NCBI GenBank assembly: GCA_036504095.1
Contig: DASXVS010000040.1
Location: 1 to 64,000 of the forward strand
From: Armatimonadota bacterium
Lineage (GTDB): Bacteria; Armatimonadota; DTGP01; JAKQQT01
Reading direction: 5' to 3'
DNA: 64,000 nucleotides
This document shows, one piece after another, positions 13,582 through 24,413 of this stretch (position 1 is the first letter of the stretch; every line of letters begins with the position of its first letter). Below the pieces are notes generated by a model. It was not told the origin of the DNA, searched no databases, and saw only the letters and a list, made by a program, of their open reading frames with translations. A program made the translations under genes and the position numbers.

Positions 13582-13611
13582 CGCATTTTGGACAGAGCCT
13601 CACCAAAGCCA

Positions 13612-14481
13612 ATGATCGAATCCCAACAACAGAACCACGCCGCAATCCTCAGCCAGGCGCTGCCGTACTTCAAGGAGTATCACGGCGCAACCATCGTTGT
13701 GAAATACGGCGGAAACGCGATGGTGGACGACGACCTGAAGCGGGCAGTGATGGACGACATCGTGCTGCTCAGCCTGGTCGGCATCCGGCCGGTGCTCGTC
13801 CACGGAGGCGGGCCGGAGATATCCGAGACGCTGAAGCGGATGGGTAAGGAAAGCACGTTTGTCCACGGTTTACGGGTCACCGACAAAGAGACCGTTGAAG
13901 TCGTGGAGATGGTGCTCGCGGGCAAGACGAACAAGGGAATCGTGAGCCTGCTCCAGCGGGCCGGCGCCAAGGCGGTCGGACTCAGCGGGCGCGACGGCAA
14001 TCTGTTCGAAGCCCGAAAGATCCTGTCACGCGGCGTGGACGTTGGATTTGTGGGCGAGGTGACGAAGGTTAACCCGGAGATACTCGATGTGCTGGCCGCG
14101 GCCGGGTACATCCCGGTCATTTCAACCGTGGGAGAGGACGAGGACGGCGAGGCGCTGAACATCAACGCAGACCACGCGGCCGGGCAGATCGCCGCCGCGC
14201 TGGGCGCCGCCAAACTGGTGCTCCTCACTGACGTGCCGGGCGTCTATGAGGACTACAGCGACCCATCCACGTTCATCAGCGAAATGACTGCGGAGCGGGG
14301 CCGCCAGATGCTGGCCGGCGGGCAGGTGGACAAGGGGATGATTCCCAAGATGGAAGGCTGCCTGATGGCGTTGGATGGCGGCTGTCAGCGAGCGCACATC
14401 TTGGACGGTCGGGTGCCGAACAGCATCCTGACGGAGTTGTTCACGCACGAAGGCTGCGGAACGATGATCACGCCGGAATAA
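13612..14481 (+). CDS. argB: Acetylglutamate kinase
   Basis: A 289-residue amino-acid-kinase-fold enzyme that phosphorylates N-acetyl-L-glutamate, the second step of arginine synthesis. Conserved elements are VVKYGGNAM near the N-terminus (phosphate loop lysine), VLVHGGGPEIS, VGLSGRDGN, NINADHAAGQIA and MIPKMEGC. The N-terminal helix before VVKYGG (NHAAILSQALPYFKEYHG) is the type that mediates hexamer formation and arginine feedback in other acetylglutamate kinases, and EGCGTMI at the C-terminus matches the arginine-site segment. In cyanobacteria and plants this enzyme is also a P-II partner; a P-II gene is present at 38378, but any link is inference. It is the first structural gene behind the attenuator. 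Confidence 0.95.
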   Translation: MIESQQQNHAAILSQALPYFKEYHGATIVVKYGGNAMVDDDLKRAVMDDIVLLSLVGIRPVLVHGGGPEISETLKRMGKESTFVHGLRVTDKETVEVVEMVLAGKTNKGIVSLLQRAGAKAVGLSGRDGNLFEARKILSRGVDVGFVGEVTKVNPEILDVLAAAGYIPVISTVGEDEDGEALNINADHAAGQIAAALGAAKLVLLTDVPGVYEDYSDPSTFISEMTAERGRQMLAGGQVDKGMIPKMEGCLMALDGGCQRAHILDGRVPNSILTELFTHEGCGTMITPE

Positions 14482-15886: not shown

Positions 15887-17101
15887 ATGGGAACTATCAC
15901 AGCAAACGGACCGCTCACAGAACACGTCATATCGGATGACAAATCCGCGATCATGGGCACATACGGGCGCGTGCCCGTTGCTTTCGCGCGGGGCGAGGGG
16001 ATGCATCTGTGGGACGTTGAGGGCAACCGTTTCCTGGATATGGTGAGCGGCGGCCGCGCGGGCGGCGGACTGGGGCATTGCCACCCGAAACTCGTCGCGG
16101 CCATCCAGAAGCAGGCAGCAACGCTTTGCTACGTGAGCAACGACTATTACAGCCCCGTGCGGTCCGAGCTGGCGAAACGCCTCAGTGAAAAGACCCACGG
16201 CTACAAGGCGTTCTTTTGTAACAGCGGCGGCGAAGCCATTGAGGGCGCCATCAAGATAGCCCGGAAATGGGCGAAAAAGGCGAAGGGACCGGACGCTGTT
16301 GAGATTCTGACGGCCTACCAGTCGTTCCACGGCCGCACCTACGGGGCCATGAGCGCCACGGGCCAGGACAAGTACAAGGAGGGGTTCGAACCCATCGTGC
16401 CCGGCTTCCGGCATATGCGGTTCATGGACCGCCAGGTGGTCACGCAGAACATGCCTGACGATACGTGCGCTGTGATGCTCGAGACGGTCCAGGGCGAGAG
16501 CGGCGTGTACCCGGCGGGCAAGGAGTATCTTCAGGACGTACGCCGGCTGACCGCTCAGAAGAACGTACTCTTGATCCTCGATGAAGTTCAGGCGGGCTTT
16601 GGGCGATGCGGAAGCTTCTGGGCTTACGAGCAGGCGGAGGTTCAGCCGGACATCGTGACGCTGGCGAAATCGCTTGGCGGCGGACTGCCGATGGGCGTCT
16701 TCATGGCTCGGCCGGACGTGGCGGAAGTCCTGGGACCCGGAACGCATGGGAGCACGTTCGGCGGCAACCCATTGGCGTCCGCGGCGGCATTGGCCGCGCT
16801 GGATGTGCTGGACGAAGAGAATCTGGTCCAGAATGCGAAGGAAATGGGCGACTATTTCCGGCACAGCCTGGCCGGCCTCAAGCGGGAGGGCAAGCCGGTC
16901 AAGGAAGTCCGCGGTATGGGCCTGATGATAGGCGTTGAGCTGGTCGGCGTGAGCGCCACGCAGGTTCAAAAGAAGTGCCATGAGGCCGGGCTTTTGATCC
17001 ATACGGTCGGCGAGAACATACTGCGGATCCTGCCGGCGCTCATTGTGAAGAAAGAGCATATCGATGAGGCGGTGGGTATCATCGCTTCGTCGCTGGATTA
17101 G
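15887..17101 (+). CDS. argD: Acetylornithine aminotransferase
   Basis: A 404-residue class-III PLP aminotransferase that converts N-acetylglutamate semialdehyde to N-acetylornithine. Seen are FCNSGGEAIEGAIKIARKW (substrate and cofactor region), SFHGRTYGAMSATGQ, ILDEVQAGFGRCGSFWAYE (cofactor aspartate) and LAKSLGGGLPMG with the PLP lysine, followed by HGSTFGGNPLASAAAL. AAGGGA precedes the ATG by six bases. It sits between the mutM pair and the carbamoyltransferase fusion, all on one strand. Related enzymes act on ornithine or GABA, but the context favours argD. Confidence 0.9.
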   Translation: MGTITANGPLTEHVISDDKSAIMGTYGRVPVAFARGEGMHLWDVEGNRFLDMVSGGRAGGGLGHCHPKLVAAIQKQAATLCYVSNDYYSPVRSELAKRLSEKTHGYKAFFCNSGGEAIEGAIKIARKWAKKAKGPDAVEILTAYQSFHGRTYGAMSATGQDKYKEGFEPIVPGFRHMRFMDRQVVTQNMPDDTCAVMLETVQGESGVYPAGKEYLQDVRRLTAQKNVLLILDEVQAGFGRCGSFWAYEQAEVQPDIVTLAKSLGGGLPMGVFMARPDVAEVLGPGTHGSTFGGNPLASAAALAALDVLDEENLVQNAKEMGDYFRHSLAGLKREGKPVKEVRGMGLMIGVELVGVSATQVQKKCHEAGLLIHTVGENILRILPALIVKKEHIDEAVGIIASSLD

Positions 17102-17187: not shown

Positions 17188-19158
17188 ATGTGGGAGAAAT
17201 TGACGGAGCGGTCGCGCCGGATTCACTACAAGGCGCAGGAAGAAGCGCACCGGTACGGCCACCCGAGTGTCGGGACGGAACACCTGCTGCTGGGCATCCT
17301 GGATGAGCCGGATTGCATGGCGGCGCGGGTTCTGGCCACCCTGGCCGGCGGCCTGGAGGCGGTACGGGTCCAGACGGTAGCCAGCATGCCGGTGGGCGCG
17401 GCGGCGCCGCACGCGCATCTTGGCTTTGCCCGGTCCGCCCGCCGCGCGATGGAACTGGCCCAGGAAGAGGCCATGCTGGAGACGGTCGATCACATTGCCA
17501 GCGGCCATCTGCTTCTGGGTGTCATACGCTGCCACGACGGCGGCGCTGCACAGGTCCTGTCCCGCTGCGGAGTCCACGTGAATGCAGTCCGGGAGGAGAT
17601 CCGGGCGGAGGCCCGTGGCGACAACGGATCGCCGGCCGGTGAAGACGCCCGGGTTCCCGAGCACACCTCTCCGAAAGCGCTGCCGCCGCTTGTGCGGTCC
17701 GCCATCGGCCGATCCTGGGACCATATGTCATACCGGGCCCGGTCGGCGGTGGAAGCCGGCATGACGGCCGCCGCATCGCGCGGGGAAACGCTGGTGACGC
17801 CGGAGCACCTCTTGTTGGGCATCGTGCAGGACGACGAAGGCGCCGCGGCGCGCGCGCTGGCACAGTTCGACGTATCCATTGTCGCCATTCGTACAAAACT
17901 GAACGCGATGCTCCCGCGAACGGGTGACCCGCGTCCGGTGGACCGCGAGATGGAACTGCGGAACACCACGGCGGAGGCGATCGCGCAGGGCGAATTGGCC
18001 GCCAGGGATTCAGGCGACGGTCAGATCACCACTCTCCGGCTGTTGCTGGGCATTGTTTCACGCCACGAGAATCCGGCCGCTGCTCTGTTGATGGAGGAGG
18101 GGATCACGCTGGCCGCGCTGAGATCCGTCTCCGAGGACCTGCATAAGGACCGAGGCCGCGAGCGCGCGGTGAACCCCGCCGAGCTTGCCGGGCTGACCCT
18201 GTCACAGTTGATCGTCCGCAGCCGCATGAAGGGGGCGAACGTGCTGCGTATCTCGGATCTCTATCCGGCGGACGTAGCGACGGTTTTTGCGGTAGCGGAG
18301 CGCCTGAAATCCCGGCGCCAGCGAGGGGGCTACGGAGATGATACTTCGACGATGCTCGCCGGAAAGACCCTGGCGCTCGTATTCCAGAAGCCTTCCCTCC
18401 GGACACGCGTGACGTTTGAAATCGCGATGACACAGTTGGGCGGGCATGCGATCCACCTCGGCCCGGACGAGATCGGCGTTGGAGAGCGTGAGGCGCCGGC
18501 GGACGTGGCACGGAACCTGGAGCGCTGGGTCGACGGAATCGTCGCCCGGACGTTCAAGCACGAGATGATCGAGGCACTGGTCTTGAACGCGGGCGTCCCC
18601 GTGATCAATGGCCTGAGCGACCTGGAGCACCCGTGCCAGGCTTTGGCCGACCTGTTTACGATGCGCGAGCGGTACGGCGAACTGAAAGGCCTTACGCTGG
18701 CGTACGTTGGGGACAGCAACAACGTTGCCCGCTCGCTGATGGAGCTCGCCGCGCGCACCGGCGTGCATATGCGCGTCGCTTCGCCCGAGGGGTATCACTT
18801 CGAGCAGGAGTTCCTGGACGAGATGAAGGCGCTGGGCGCCGTCAACGGAGCGATCATCGAAGCGATGGTCGACCCGAAAGCGGCCGTGACAGGCGCGGAT
18901 GCGGTGTACACCGATGTGTGGGCAAGCATGGGCCAGGAAGCGGAGACGGCAATTCGCAAGAAGGCATTTGCCGGCTATCAACTCAATATGGAGCTGATGT
19001 CACATGCAAAGCCGACGGCGATCGTGCTGCACTGCCAGCCGGCGCACCGTGGTGAGGAGATCTCCTCCGAAGCGCTGGACTGCCCGAACAGCGCGGTCTT
19101 CGACCAGGCGGAGAACAGAATGCACGTACAGAAGGCGCTCCTGGCGCTGACGATGTAG
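17188..19158 (+). CDS. argF: ClpC-type N-repeat domains fused to ornithine carbamoyltransferase
   Basis: A 656-residue chain. Residues 1-320 hold four Clp-N repeats with GTEHLLLG (30s), ASGHLLLG (105-112), TPEHLLLG (204-211) and TTLRLLLG (281-288); the first repeat (LTERSRRI, then AQEEAHRYGH) closely resembles ClpC. Residues about 349-656 are a complete ornithine carbamoyltransferase: carbamoyl-phosphate site SLRTR at 403-407, HPCQALAD, GDSNNVARSL and the ornithine loop DVWASMGQE. The catalytic HCLP motif reads HCQP (615-618). The enzyme makes citrulline from ornithine. ATG 17188 has AGGAGA upstream, and no ribosome site marks an internal start near the OTC domain, so the fusion appears real. 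No AAA+ ATPase domain is present. The role of the Clp-N part is unknown; binding of arginine or phospho-arginine is my inference. Confidence 0.92.
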   Translation: MWEKLTERSRRIHYKAQEEAHRYGHPSVGTEHLLLGILDEPDCMAARVLATLAGGLEAVRVQTVASMPVGAAAPHAHLGFARSARRAMELAQEEAMLETVDHIASGHLLLGVIRCHDGGAAQVLSRCGVHVNAVREEIRAEARGDNGSPAGEDARVPEHTSPKALPPLVRSAIGRSWDHMSYRARSAVEAGMTAAASRGETLVTPEHLLLGIVQDDEGAAARALAQFDVSIVAIRTKLNAMLPRTGDPRPVDREMELRNTTAEAIAQGELAARDSGDGQITTLRLLLGIVSRHENPAAALLMEEGITLAALRSVSEDLHKDRGRERAVNPAELAGLTLSQLIVRSRMKGANVLRISDLYPADVATVFAVAERLKSRRQRGGYGDDTSTMLAGKTLALVFQKPSLRTRVTFEIAMTQLGGHAIHLGPDEIGVGEREAPADVARNLERWVDGIVARTFKHEMIEALVLNAGVPVINGLSDLEHPCQALADLFTMRERYGELKGLTLAYVGDSNNVARSLMELAARTGVHMRVASPEGYHFEQEFLDEMKALGAVNGAIIEAMVDPKAAVTGADAVYTDVWASMGQEAETAIRKKAFAGYQLNMELMSHAKPTAIVLHCQPAHRGEEISSEALDCPNSAVFDQAENRMHVQKALLALTM

Positions 19159-19739: not shown

Positions 19740-19809
19740 TCGGGTGAAGATGCCCGGGACAACGGCGTTGGGCATGAACGCCCGACTTACTGATTGTGAG
19801 GAGATTTCA

Positions 19810-21000
19810 ATGAACGAAGTTGTGCTGATCTATTCTGGAGGGCTCGATACCTCCGTATGCATCCCGATGATGAAGGAAGATTATGGGTTTGACCACATCA
19901 TCACCGTTACGGTTGACGTGGGACAGCCGGCGGAGGACATCGCGGTGGCGGCCGAAAAGGCCAGGAAAATGGGAACCGAGCATTACACCGTGAACGCGGC
20001 CGACGAATTCGCCGCCGATTACTGCTTCCCCGCGATACGCGCCAACGCCATGTATCAGGGCGGCTACCCGGTGTCCACCAGTATCGCGCGCCCTCTGATC
20101 GCACTCAAGGCTGTTGAGATCGCGCAGCAGAAGGGCGTTAAGGCGTTTGCGCACGGATGCACTGGCAAGGGCAACGATCAACTGCGCATCGAGTTCATTG
20201 TTCGCACCTTGCTCCCGGACGCGAGGATCATCGCTCCCATGCGCGAGAAGAACATGACTCGCACCGAGGAAATCGAGTACGCGAAGGTCAAGGGTGTTCC
20301 TATCGGGCAGAGCGCCGAGAAGATATGGTCCATCGATGAGAACGTCTGGGGACGGAGCATTGAGGGCGGGCGCCTCGAGGAACCGGATTTCGCTCCGCCG
20401 GAAGAGATCTTCGAATGGACGGTCAGTCCGCAATCGGCGCCGGAAAAGCCGACCGATGTTGTGATCGGTTTCAAGGACGGCAACCCGGTCTCCCTCGACG
20501 GGGTGAAGATGAATCCGCTGACTCTTATCCGCGCGGCCCACAAGCTGGCCGGCGCGAACGGTGTCGGACGCATCGACATCATGGAAGACCGGATGCTGGG
20601 CCTGAAGGTCCGCGAGAACTATGAGTGTCCGGCCCCGGCGCTCCTGTATCCCGCTCACGCCGCATTGGAGGCCCTGGTATTCACGAAGGAAGAGCGTGCC
20701 TTCAAACGGATGGTCGATGATAAATGGGCCGACCTGGCGTATGCCGGCCTGTGGCTTGATCCGCTTAAGGCGGACCTGGATGCCTTCATCGCCAAGACCC
20801 AGGAACGCGTATCGGGCGAGGTGATTCTGCGCTTGTACAAGGGAAGCGTGACGGTCATCGGCCGCCGGAGCCCGAACGCGCTGTACAGCGAGGACCTGGC
20901 GTCGTTCGACAGCAAAACGTGGGACCAGCGCGACGGAGAGGCGCTGTGCAAGGCGCACGGCGCACAGGCCCGCATGGCCTGGCAAATCGCAAGCAAGTGA
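19810..21000 (+). CDS. argG: Argininosuccinate synthase
   Basis: A 396-residue ATP-dependent ligase that joins citrulline and aspartate. The PP-loop is LIYSGGLDTSVCI at the N-terminus, followed by ARPLIALKAVEIAQQKG, AHGCTGKGNDQLRIE and IGQSAEKIWSIDENVWG, all hallmarks of ArgG. Length is normal. GAGGAGA lies seven bases before the ATG at 19810; an upstream ATG is out of context because its residues are not conserved. An 11-bp hairpin follows the stop. Confidence 0.96.
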   Translation: MNEVVLIYSGGLDTSVCIPMMKEDYGFDHIITVTVDVGQPAEDIAVAAEKARKMGTEHYTVNAADEFAADYCFPAIRANAMYQGGYPVSTSIARPLIALKAVEIAQQKGVKAFAHGCTGKGNDQLRIEFIVRTLLPDARIIAPMREKNMTRTEEIEYAKVKGVPIGQSAEKIWSIDENVWGRSIEGGRLEEPDFAPPEEIFEWTVSPQSAPEKPTDVVIGFKDGNPVSLDGVKMNPLTLIRAAHKLAGANGVGRIDIMEDRMLGLKVRENYECPAPALLYPAHAALEALVFTKEERAFKRMVDDKWADLAYAGLWLDPLKADLDAFIAKTQERVSGEVILRLYKGSVTVIGRRSPNALYSEDLASFDSKTWDQRDGEALCKAHGAQARMAWQIASK

Positions 21001-21061: not shown

Positions 21062-22999
21062 ATGAACCGCATGCGTACGCGCTTAACAGTGTCTCTCTAT
21101 GCCGTTGGCTGCCTGTCCGGCGCGGCCTTCGCCGGGGTTCCAGGTGCCGCTCCGCTGCTGGCCACTGTGGTCAGGGCGGCCAACTCCGGAACGCCCCAAA
21201 CGGTTACCGGGGTGACGGTGGGCAATAAGACGCTCGGCTGGATCCCTGGCGCGGAAGGCCTCACCATTCGCAAGTTCTTTCAGCCGGACCCCTGGAAGGC
21301 CGCCACGCTGGAACCACCGTTCACCAACGGCGCTTCACTCGCGGTATTCCATACGTGGCACGCTCCGGAATCGGACGGCGACCACATTCACCCGCTCCTC
21401 AAGTCGGCGGCGGGCCTGAAGATCGGTCCCGAGATCGGTGAACGGGATACCCAGGGCTACCGCATCACTCACCATGACCTTTCCATACGCATCACCCCCC
21501 AGGCGAAGCGCGCCGATATCCGTGACTCGTTCACGATCGTGCCACTGAAGAACCCGCAACGGATCGCGTTTCTCCGGATATCGTCCGATTTCAAAGTCGC
21601 GTCGCTGCGTTCGGCCGGGAAAGCGATACCGTTCAGACAGGCTGGGGGCATTATCGCGGTTCCGGTGCCGAAGGGAAAGTCGGTCACGTTGGCAATGGCG
21701 TATTCCGGCGTGGTTGCCCACAAGATGATGAGTTCCATTACGCCCGACCTGGCCGTGTTGAGCGCGTATTACTATCCCACCCTCGGTCGTTTGCCGTCGA
21801 CGGCGGATGTCACAGCCGTTGTGCCCCGGGGCTGGTCGGTCGTGACACAGGGCGAGTTGGTACGGAGCGCATCGGACGCGAAGTCGGCGACTTTCACGTT
21901 CCACAACCCTCTGCCTGTGAACTACTTCACGCTGGATGCCGCACCCTATCAGATTACCCGGCGGCAGGTTGCCGGTCACACGCTGTACGCCTACCTTCTC
22001 AAATCACGCCCCGGATTCGCGGATTCCCTTCTCGATTCCGTCGCGCAGGCGCTTCCATACTTCGAGAAACGGTTCGGGCCGTATCCGTATACCCGCTACA
22101 GCGTTGTGGATGGCGGTGCGATCATGGGCTTCGTGGCGCTCGAAGGATACAGCATGGCGTCCTACGGCACTCTGACGCTTACCCCGAACGTCCTGGCGCA
22201 CGAGCTTGCCCATACGTGGTGGGGCGGCGTCGTCCCGAACACATATCTGCGTTCGTGGTGGAACGAGTCGTTCGCACGTTATTCGGACGAGGCGTTTTCC
22301 CGCATGCGCAACAATATTACCGAGCGCCACCCGACCGATCGCCCATGGTGGCCGCCGCTGCACGCGGTTGAGGCCGACTCGCTGCGCACCGCACGCGATG
22401 AGAGTTCGGTGAACGCGATCGCCTACGAGAAAGGGCGCGTGGTGCTTCGCCTGCTTGAGGATCAGGTGACGCAGCCGGCGTTCGACAAGTGCATTCGGGA
22501 GTTCGTGAAAGAGCGGCGCTCCGGGCTGGACACCGACTGGCCCGATTTCCAGCGCGCTGTGGAGCGGGTCACCGGAAGGAAATGGGGCTGGTTTTTCGAC
22601 CAGTGGGTGAATCGTAAGGGGTGGCCCCGGATTGAGTTCTCGAACGTCCGGGCCCGGTTGAACGAAGATGGGCAGTGGGAGGTGTCAGGTCGCGTTTCGC
22701 AGCCGTTGGACGTGTACATGTGCGAGGTCAAACTGCGGATGTCGGGCGCGTTCGACAAGAATGGAACGAAGACCGATTCGGCTTTCCCCATGCCGGACGC
22801 GTCGCTGGTATTGACTGACAATGACCGCCCATTCCAGTTCACGATGGACCATCTCCCGCAGAAGCTCCAACTCGATCCCGACCTCGACGTGCCGCGCTGT
22901 ATGGGCGTGGACGACATTGCATTGTTCGATAAGTTCGGCAACACCGTGATGCAGCACAGTCGCGAGGAAGCCGAGCCCTCGCCGTTTGGAGGAATGTGA
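21062..22999 (+). CDS. Secreted M1-family (gluzincin) aminopeptidase
   Basis: A 645-residue protein with a signal peptide ending near CLSGAAFA. The metallopeptidase core shows HELAHTWWGGVVP (HExxH, zinc and catalytic Glu) and NESFARYSDEAF, which supplies the third zinc ligand. MGFVALEGYS takes the place of the substrate-binding GAMEN segment. The C-terminal 130 residues form a beta-sandwich-like part. It probably trims N-terminal residues from exported peptides. GGAGG precedes the ATG. It is inserted between argG and argH, with its stop one base from the argH start, so it appears to be part of that transcript. Confidence 0.85.
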   Translation: MNRMRTRLTVSLYAVGCLSGAAFAGVPGAAPLLATVVRAANSGTPQTVTGVTVGNKTLGWIPGAEGLTIRKFFQPDPWKAATLEPPFTNGASLAVFHTWHAPESDGDHIHPLLKSAAGLKIGPEIGERDTQGYRITHHDLSIRITPQAKRADIRDSFTIVPLKNPQRIAFLRISSDFKVASLRSAGKAIPFRQAGGIIAVPVPKGKSVTLAMAYSGVVAHKMMSSITPDLAVLSAYYYPTLGRLPSTADVTAVVPRGWSVVTQGELVRSASDAKSATFTFHNPLPVNYFTLDAAPYQITRRQVAGHTLYAYLLKSRPGFADSLLDSVAQALPYFEKRFGPYPYTRYSVVDGGAIMGFVALEGYSMASYGTLTLTPNVLAHELAHTWWGGVVPNTYLRSWWNESFARYSDEAFSRMRNNITERHPTDRPWWPPLHAVEADSLRTARDESSVNAIAYEKGRVVLRLLEDQVTQPAFDKCIREFVKERRSGLDTDWPDFQRAVERVTGRKWGWFFDQWVNRKGWPRIEFSNVRARLNEDGQWEVSGRVSQPLDVYMCEVKLRMSGAFDKNGTKTDSAFPMPDASLVLTDNDRPFQFTMDHLPQKLQLDPDLDVPRCMGVDDIALFDKFGNTVMQHSREEAEPSPFGGM

Positions 23000-23000
23000 T

Positions 23001-24413
23001 ATGGCCCAGCAGATGTGGGGTGGCAGATTCGAGGGTCAATCCGATCCTCTGGCGCGGGAGTATGGAGACAGCCTGACGTTTGACAGGCGCCTCACGATGT
23101 ACGATCTCAATGGGAGCATCGCGCACGCGAATATGCTGGCGGCGCAGGGCCTGCTGGATGCGCGTGAGTTGGGTGAGATGGTGGAAGGCCTGGGCCGCAT
23201 CGGGGTGGAGTTCGCCGACGGGCAGTTCCCCCGTCGCGGCGCAGAGGACATCCACTCCGCCGTGGAGTCGCGCCTGCAGGAACTGATCGGCGCGTCCGCC
23301 GGCAAACTGCACACCGCCCGCAGCCGCAACGACCAGGTGGCGACCGACCTGCACCTCTTCGTCCTGGATTGGGGCACGCGAATCGGCCACGCAATCCGGG
23401 GACTGCAGAAAGCCATCGTGGAGATCGCGGCCGAGCACGTCGAGACGGTGATGCCCGGCTTCACCCATCTCCAGCCTGCGCAGCCCGTAACCCTGGCGCA
23501 CCACCTGCTGGCCTATTTCTGGATGCTCGAGCGTGACGCCGGTCGCCTGACGGACGCCTTGAACCGTTCGGCGATGTGTCCCCTCGGCGCCGCCGCACTC
23601 GCGGGCACCGCGTTCCCCGTTGACCGCTATGCAACCGCAGAGGAACTTGGGTTCGACGCGCCGTACCCGAACAGCATGGACGCCGTGAGCGATCGTGATT
23701 TCGCCATCGAGTTCCTTTCCTTCGCGGCGGTCTGTATCGCGCACATGTCGCGGCTGTGCGAGGAATTGATCCTTTGGAGCACGCCGCAATACGGATTTGT
23801 GGAGCTGAACGACGCGTACGCCACCGGCAGCAGTATCATGCCGCAAAAGAAGAACCCGGACCTGTGCGAACTCATTCGCGGCAAGTCGGGCCGGGTGTTC
23901 GGAAACCTGCAGGCGATCCTCGTAGTGCTCAAGGGTACACCGCTGGCGTACAATAAGGACTTCCAGGAAGACAAGGAAGCGTTGTTCGATTCCGTGGACA
24001 CGCTGTACCCGGCGATTGTCCTGATGGAATCGATATTGCGTTCAGCGGCTTGGAACACCGATCGACTGCGCGCCGCGGCAGCCGCGGGGTTCTCGGTGGC
24101 CACCGACCTGGCGGATCACCTCGCCATGCAGGGGCTGCCGTTCCGGCAGGCGCACGAAGTCGTCGGCAAGATAGTTCGCCAGTGCATTGAGCGAAATGCG
24201 GCTCTGGAATCGATGAGCAATTCGGACCTCAAGGCATTCTCTCCGTATTTCGCGGCTGACTATGTTGTGCCAACCGTGGAACAGAGCATCGCCTCCCGAA
24301 GCTCGTACGGAGGCACGGCGCCGGCGGCGGTGAGGGCGCAATTGGAAGAGGCGAGCGCTATCCTGGCGGCGGCTGAGGAGATTCACGAAGAGGACGGTGG
24401 CGAAAACGCCTGA
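23001..24413 (+). CDS. argH: Argininosuccinate lyase
   Basis: A 470-residue fumarase-superfamily enzyme that splits argininosuccinate into arginine and fumarate. It starts MAQQMWGGRFEG; other landmarks are HTARSRNDQVATDLHLF, MPGFTHLQPAQPVTLAHH and the signature loop GSSIMPQKKNPD with its catalytic serine. GGAGG lies eight bases upstream of the ATG, inside the end of the preceding peptidase gene. This is the last recognisable gene of the arginine cluster; argC and argJ are not in the window. Confidence 0.96.
   Translation: MAQQMWGGRFEGQSDPLAREYGDSLTFDRRLTMYDLNGSIAHANMLAAQGLLDARELGEMVEGLGRIGVEFADGQFPRRGAEDIHSAVESRLQELIGASAGKLHTARSRNDQVATDLHLFVLDWGTRIGHAIRGLQKAIVEIAAEHVETVMPGFTHLQPAQPVTLAHHLLAYFWMLERDAGRLTDALNRSAMCPLGAAALAGTAFPVDRYATAEELGFDAPYPNSMDAVSDRDFAIEFLSFAAVCIAHMSRLCEELILWSTPQYGFVELNDAYATGSSIMPQKKNPDLCELIRGKSGRVFGNLQAILVVLKGTPLAYNKDFQEDKEALFDSVDTLYPAIVLMESILRSAAWNTDRLRAAAAAGFSVATDLADHLAMQGLPFRQAHEVVGKIVRQCIERNAALESMSNSDLKAFSPYFAADYVVPTVEQSIASRSSYGGTAPAAVRAQLEEASAILAAAEEIHEEDGGENA

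Follow-up and report, generated by a model that had tools for sequence, protein, structure and literature searches.

The window, by which we mean the whole 64,000-nucleotide stretch of Armatimonadota DNA analyzed here, carries a gene that encodes four Clp_N repeats fused in frame to an ornithine carbamoyltransferase (OTC). This fusion is genuine, selected, and recurrent in the phylum of the source organism. To our knowledge, Clp_N has otherwise been described almost exclusively as the receptor domain of Hsp100 unfoldases. The enzyme-Clp_N fusions described below suggest a previously undescribed way to link metabolic enzymes into protein quality control.

The fusion gene and its genomic setting

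The fusion gene occupies positions 17,188 to 19,158 of the forward strand as a single stop-free open reading frame that translates to 656 amino acids, with an AGGAGA sequence resembling a ribosome binding site about 10 nucleotides upstream of its ATG at 17,188. Pfam detects Clp_N (PF02861) in four stretches of the protein, at 135.5 bits against a cut-off of 20.7, followed by OTCace_N at residues 351-494 and OTCace at residues 500-654. The initial reading of four Clp_N repeats joined in frame to a full OTC is therefore borne out by the uninterrupted frame and by both Pfam and NCBIfam, and the repeat motifs are as first described: GTEH (residues 29-32), ASGH (104-107), TPEH (204-207), and TTLR (281-284). 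These repeats are organized as two double domains. The first (residues 1-138; 17,188-17,601) is of the ClpC type, bears GTEH in repeat 1 and ASGH in repeat 2, and matches the sequences of solved ClpC N-domain chains with an E value of about 1e-24. The second (residues 177-313; 17,716-18,126) is more divergent and bears TPEH and TTLR. Identity between the Clp_N repeats of the window and the ClpC of the same genome is 42% or less. Pfam finds no AAA family in the fusion protein, whereas a ClpC/Hsp100 unfoldase is recognized by two AAA+ modules.

A linker that varies among relatives (residues 314-345; 18,127-18,222) leads into the OTC domain (residues 346-656; 18,223-19,155), which is complete and catalytically plausible. 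Specifically, the NCBIfam models for OTC exceed their cut-offs (NF001986, 396 versus 306 bits; TIGR00658, 360 versus 281 bits), residues 348-656 align with the Pyrococcus OTC across its entire length, and the carbamoyl-phosphate, ornithine, and HCxP motifs (PSLRTR at 402, EHPCQ at 480, DVWASMG at 576, and HCQP at 615) are intact and conserved over 123 OTCs. The window has HCQP where HCLP is usual; among the OTCs surveyed, this change is confined to two sequences, both of them fused, and no plain OTC shows it.

A genome search identified the fusion as the only OTC in an assembly that is 98.6% complete; its other matches there are an aspartate-carbamoyltransferase-like gene, clpC, and a clpB-like gene. 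The surrounding cluster, as read from context, has the order argB, fpg, argD, fusion, GNAT-like ORF, argG, aminopeptidase-like gene, and argH. The forward strand thus carries the genes for acetylglutamate kinase (argB; 13,588-14,481), acetylornithine transaminase (argD; 15,887-17,101, directly upstream of the fusion), argininosuccinate synthase (argG; 19,744-21,000), and argininosuccinate lyase (argH; 22,986-24,413). Elsewhere in the genome (C63), the protein-arginine kinase gene mcsB (354 amino acids) lies directly before clpC (848 amino acids), so that both genes whose presence the earlier note had proposed to check are present, and they are adjacent. The ilvE gene adjoins this mcsB-clpC pair (L170:8455-9414, reverse strand).

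Two trivial explanations for the architecture were ruled out. A sequencing or assembly artefact is contradicted by the sister genome G001, the only sampled relative from the same family, which has the identical architecture from end to end at 61% identity, and by the signs of purifying selection. Identity to this relative is 64% in the first double domain, 46% in the second, and 69% in the OTC domain. A frameshifted gene pair is likewise excluded for the source lineage. The earlier note held that the fusion would be undermined if close relatives had its parts as separate genes, split by a frameshift or a stop codon, but the nearest relative is fused throughout, and the adjoining separate genes that do exist in distant families are real and intact.

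Recurrence, selection, and origin of the fusions

Our sample comprised 181 genomes of the source organism's phylum, drawn by one OTC query, together with 61 relatives, and the DNA around 123 OTC genes was read. Clp_N-OTC fusions were found at 34 of these 123 loci, distributed over 11 of 34 families. The architecture is not unique to the window. Most fused OTCs carry one double Clp_N domain, those of family f1 carry two, and those of f18 carry three. The OTC of G021 (L062:5506-8730, reverse strand) has three double Clp_N domains and, in addition, a Clp_N gene just upstream.

At five further loci, a separate Clp_N gene lies close upstream of the OTC gene. In family f3, such a gene directly precedes OTC in three genomes: G003 and G017 have a four-repeat Clp_N gene 4 bp from OTC, and G030 has a two-repeat Clp_N gene whose frame overlaps that of OTC. 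Because a stop separates the two parts in all three, these were counted as adjacent genes rather than as fusions. In f8, a Clp_N gene is located 0.3-0.5 kb upstream of OTC in two genomes, and f6 combines a fusion with an additional Clp_N gene upstream of OTC. When the fused and plain states are mapped on the OTC tree, 12 changes result, at least six of which are forced by well supported branches. Many related genomes lack the fusion or have lost it.

ArgD-OTC fusions and PilB-N-like inserts were kept apart from the Clp_N fusions. ArgD lies N-terminal to OTC in one frame in 17 sequences, from 16 f13 genomes and G072 (for example, L054:6302-8545, reverse strand, and L084:4698-6809, forward strand), and constitutes a second type of OTC fusion in the phylum. 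Two fused OTCs of f22 (L098:4700-6547 and L136:3935-5794, both reverse strand) contain a region of about 170 amino acids between Clp_N and OTC. This region matches a Pfam type II/IV secretion ATPase family, exceeding the cut-off only in L136.

Two other phyla, reached through records labelled Acidobacteria and Clostridiales, yielded no Clp_N-OTC fusion among about 155 best OTC matches listed for each (about 310 in all); nearly all of these matches start in the linker or beyond it, and the Clp_N part is spanned by none. Two candidate fusions outside the phylum, G374 and G324, whose matches extended into the Clp_N part, were rejected, as their Clp_N genes sit on other contigs. A search of the open-access literature returned no paper on OTC with Clp_N or on OTC with Armatimonadetes, and no earlier description of the architecture in the literature covered.

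Comparison of close pairs of genomes shows purifying selection on the Clp_N part. Most pairs give dN/dS values of 0.02-0.16 for Clp_N (one f4 pair gives 0.31) and 0.04-0.08 for the OTC part; the Clp_N value sometimes equals that of OTC, and the linkers are more variable. For the pair G000 and G001, in which dS is near saturation, dN/dS is 0.23 in domain 1, 0.40 in domain 2, and 0.17 in OTC.

OTC is not the only partner of Clp_N. A non-exhaustive survey of 96 genomes, in which protein identities were deduced from Pfam families, revealed Clp_N joined to NadC (L191), RidA (L195), a PTPS/QueD-like protein (L196), proline racemase (twice; L211 and L215), a class IV, IlvE-like aminotransferase (L216), an ABM monooxygenase (L212), an ECF sigma factor (L219), and a HEAT protein (L224). 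Each of these partners occurs once or twice, compared with 34 loci for OTC. G012 carries Clp_N with a degenerate OTC copy (L194:1199-2668, forward strand) that has no recognizable active-site motifs, while a functional OTC is encoded elsewhere in that genome; this paralogue is possibly a pseudo-enzyme regulator.

Although a Clp_N tree built on 138 columns is poorly resolved, most of the supported placements of modules on other enzymes fall beside the ClpC of their own lineage. The NadC-fusion module groups with the ClpC of its own genome, G002, and the PTPS-fusion module with that of G009 (support 100). Similarly, the proline-racemase-fusion modules group with f8 ClpCs, one OTC module groups with the ClpC of its own genome, G021, and another with f22 ClpCs. 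The Clp_N modules of the window form long branches of their own. Modules that group with the ClpC of their own lineage imply that the 5′ end of clpC was taken up several times. In G148, a Clp_N-IlvE fusion lies right before clpC, and local duplication near clpC is a likely route to fusions of the Clp_N-IlvE type.

Pocket residues and the function of the Clp_N module

Pocket residues are numbered here after B. subtilis ClpC, whose sequence served as alignment reference. Residues Thr7, Glu32, and Glu106 are part of the phospho-arginine sites of ClpC, and R9 and R122, at or near these sites, touch its M-domain (PMC12583610). The OTC-fused modules retain Glu32 in 34 of 37 cases, Glu106 in 32 of 38, and Thr or Ser at position 7 in 36 of 37, with R9 present in 17 of 37 and R122 in 17 of 38. 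The corresponding counts among ClpCs of the phylum are 37, 36, and 37 of 37 for the first three positions, and 36 and 31 of 37 for the two arginines. This pattern suggests that the fused modules have retained the binding face and lost contacts internal to ClpC.

The window itself departs further from ClpC. Repeat 1 retains the threonine, arginine, and glutamate, and repeat 2 has replaced E106 with G and R122 with Q. Repeat 3 reads TPEH in the window and TPDY, with Asp, in G001, leaving the repeat-1 Glu as the only one common to both; in this family, the second double domain has for the most part lost its pocket residues. The earlier note suggested that a guanidinium group may still be bound at one site in each pair. 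Here this holds only for repeat 1, since the sister genome does not share the Glu of repeat 3. Furthermore, the organism's own ClpB (L004; an 898-residue ORF at C45 classed as ClpB by its length and its divergence from ClpC) has Glu-His at both sites. The motif is therefore not diagnostic of phospho-arginine binding, and Glu conservation was rejected as proof of guanidinium binding.

We propose that the fusion gene encodes a working OTC, which would convert carbamoyl phosphate and ornithine to citrulline, and that its N terminus would display the ClpC receptor domain twice, as a module acquired from the Hsp100 machinery of the organism itself. Because OTCs assemble as trimers or multiples of trimers, each particle would carry several Clp_N modules. 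These would serve as a docking module, not as an arginine sensor, by binding the targets of the ClpC N-domain: phospho-arginine-marked proteins, McsB or adaptors, exposed peptides, or ClpC. Docking of this kind would place the activity, stability, or location of OTC under the ClpC/McsB network. We give this coupling an even chance of being correct.

A generic role in docking would accord with the presence of the module on six or more other types of enzyme, and a tether to Clp or McsB-type systems, as first suggested for this gene, is still plausible given the in-frame fusion, the intact OTC, the adjacent mcsB and clpC genes, and the Glu residues that most fused relatives keep at the two sites. 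Several observations weigh on the other side. The Glu residues of ClpB leave phospho-arginine binding unproven, and pocket residues are lost from repeat 2 and most of domain 2, the domain with the higher dN/dS. The mcsB gene went undetected in four of 34 genomes with a fusion and in all three of the f3 genomes that encode Clp_N separately, and many relatives are without the fusion. Raw counts do associate the fusion with mcsB (30 of 34 fused versus 48 of 89 unfused genomes; Fisher p about 3e-4), but the median p across phylogenetically independent pairs is 0.5, and for this reason we do not claim a correlation.

If the module docks OTC, is it also a general device? The ClpC N-domain could be a plug that has been copied repeatedly from each organism's own clpC onto biosynthetic enzymes, thereby bringing them under phospho-arginine control by ClpC and McsB. 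We advance this broader reading tentatively. Several of the partner enzyme families form trimers or hexamers, and these could offer the domain in multivalent form to the ClpC ring, with its six-fold symmetry, or to proteins marked by phospho-arginine. If true, such fusions would represent a metabolic branch of the bacterial counterpart to ubiquitin signalling.

Other explanations must be weighed against docking. The pockets might bind the guanidinium group of the end product, as arginine or phospho-arginine, and allosterically inhibit or activate OTC. Such a sensor would agree with the fact that an arginine-pathway enzyme is by far the most common Clp_N partner in the survey and that most fused modules retain a pocket Glu. 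However, the same module resides on NadC, RidA, PTPS, proline racemase, IlvE, and ABM enzymes, which argues against an arginine-pathway device; the Glu is gone from repeats 2 and 4, and from repeat 3 of G001; and a plain OTC serves the pathway in many close relatives. Moreover, ClpC is activated by phospho-arginine but not by non-phosphorylated arginine (PMC12583610). The direct arginine feedback put forward in the earlier note is weakened by these findings, and we consider a sensor very unlikely. A similarly low probability attaches to the idea that the fusions are near-neutral by-products, in which the 5′ end of clpC is frequently duplicated in tandem and the copies are spliced, without function, onto neighboring genes. 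Free-standing Clp_N genes do occur beside clpC in several genomes, and both the G148 fusion and the ilvE gene of the source genome adjoin clpC or mcsB-clpC. Nevertheless, purifying selection on the module is at or near the level of the catalytic domain in several close pairs, and the same partner recurs across 11 families, for the most part at a distance from clpC.

Unlikely, but less readily dismissed, is a decoy function, wherein Clp_N on abundant oligomeric enzymes would sequester ligands or toxic cyclic peptides and so keep them from ClpC. Mimicry would need the repeated capture from a lineage's own ClpC that the tree indicates, the enzyme carriers are diverse, and there is experimental precedent in mycobacteria, where the partial ClpC homologue ClpC2 acts in this way on cyclomarin (PMC10030653). 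This reading leaves the strong bias toward OTC unexplained, and the modules of the window's family, with their long branches and low identity, have diverged further from their own ClpC than would be expected of a decoy. Alternatively, a hydrophobic groove of Clp_N might hold the OTC chain or set its oligomeric state, acting in cis as a folding aid or solubility handle. This would suit any enzyme partner and the short, variable linkers, and could dispense with the pockets, but closely related OTC domains manage without Clp_N, and the separate adjoining genes in f3 and f6 misfit strict action in cis. We judge such a role improbable as well.

The recurrence of Clp_N on or beside OTC, and its sporadic occurrence on other enzymes, predicts a direct link between protein quality control and the synthesis of amino acids or cofactors. 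The fusions are also natural ATPase-free versions of the ClpC receptor, which could help to tell residues needed for ligand binding from those needed only for ClpC assembly.

Relation to known systems

The N-terminal part of the fusion resembles the ClpC N-domains of B. subtilis, S. aureus, and M. tuberculosis in its double Clp_N fold, as judged by sequence, in the Glu32-type GTEH motif of repeat 1, and in coming from a genome where clpC and mcsB are adjacent. Unlike ClpC, it has neither AAA+ modules nor an M-domain and is joined to a biosynthetic enzyme; the second pocket is lost in the window, and contacts of the R9 and R122 type are relaxed across the fused set. The C-terminal part resembles the ArgF OTC of Pyrococcus furiosus (1A1S and 1PVV) in its complete catalytic domain and intact motifs, but is preceded by 345 additional residues and has HCQP in place of HCLP.

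Two other systems show a similar reuse of Clp_N. In mycobacterial ClpC2, likewise, another module has taken up a ClpC N-domain, with no ATPase (PMC10030653), but its N-terminal part dimerizes and binds DNA, and the protein represses its own promoter, whereas the partner here is a metabolic enzyme. In bacterial conflict systems, Clp_N repeats are fused to vWA proteins as rare variants (PMC7159879). There, as in the fusions described here, Clp_N is a portable accessory domain, although the partners and the context are different.
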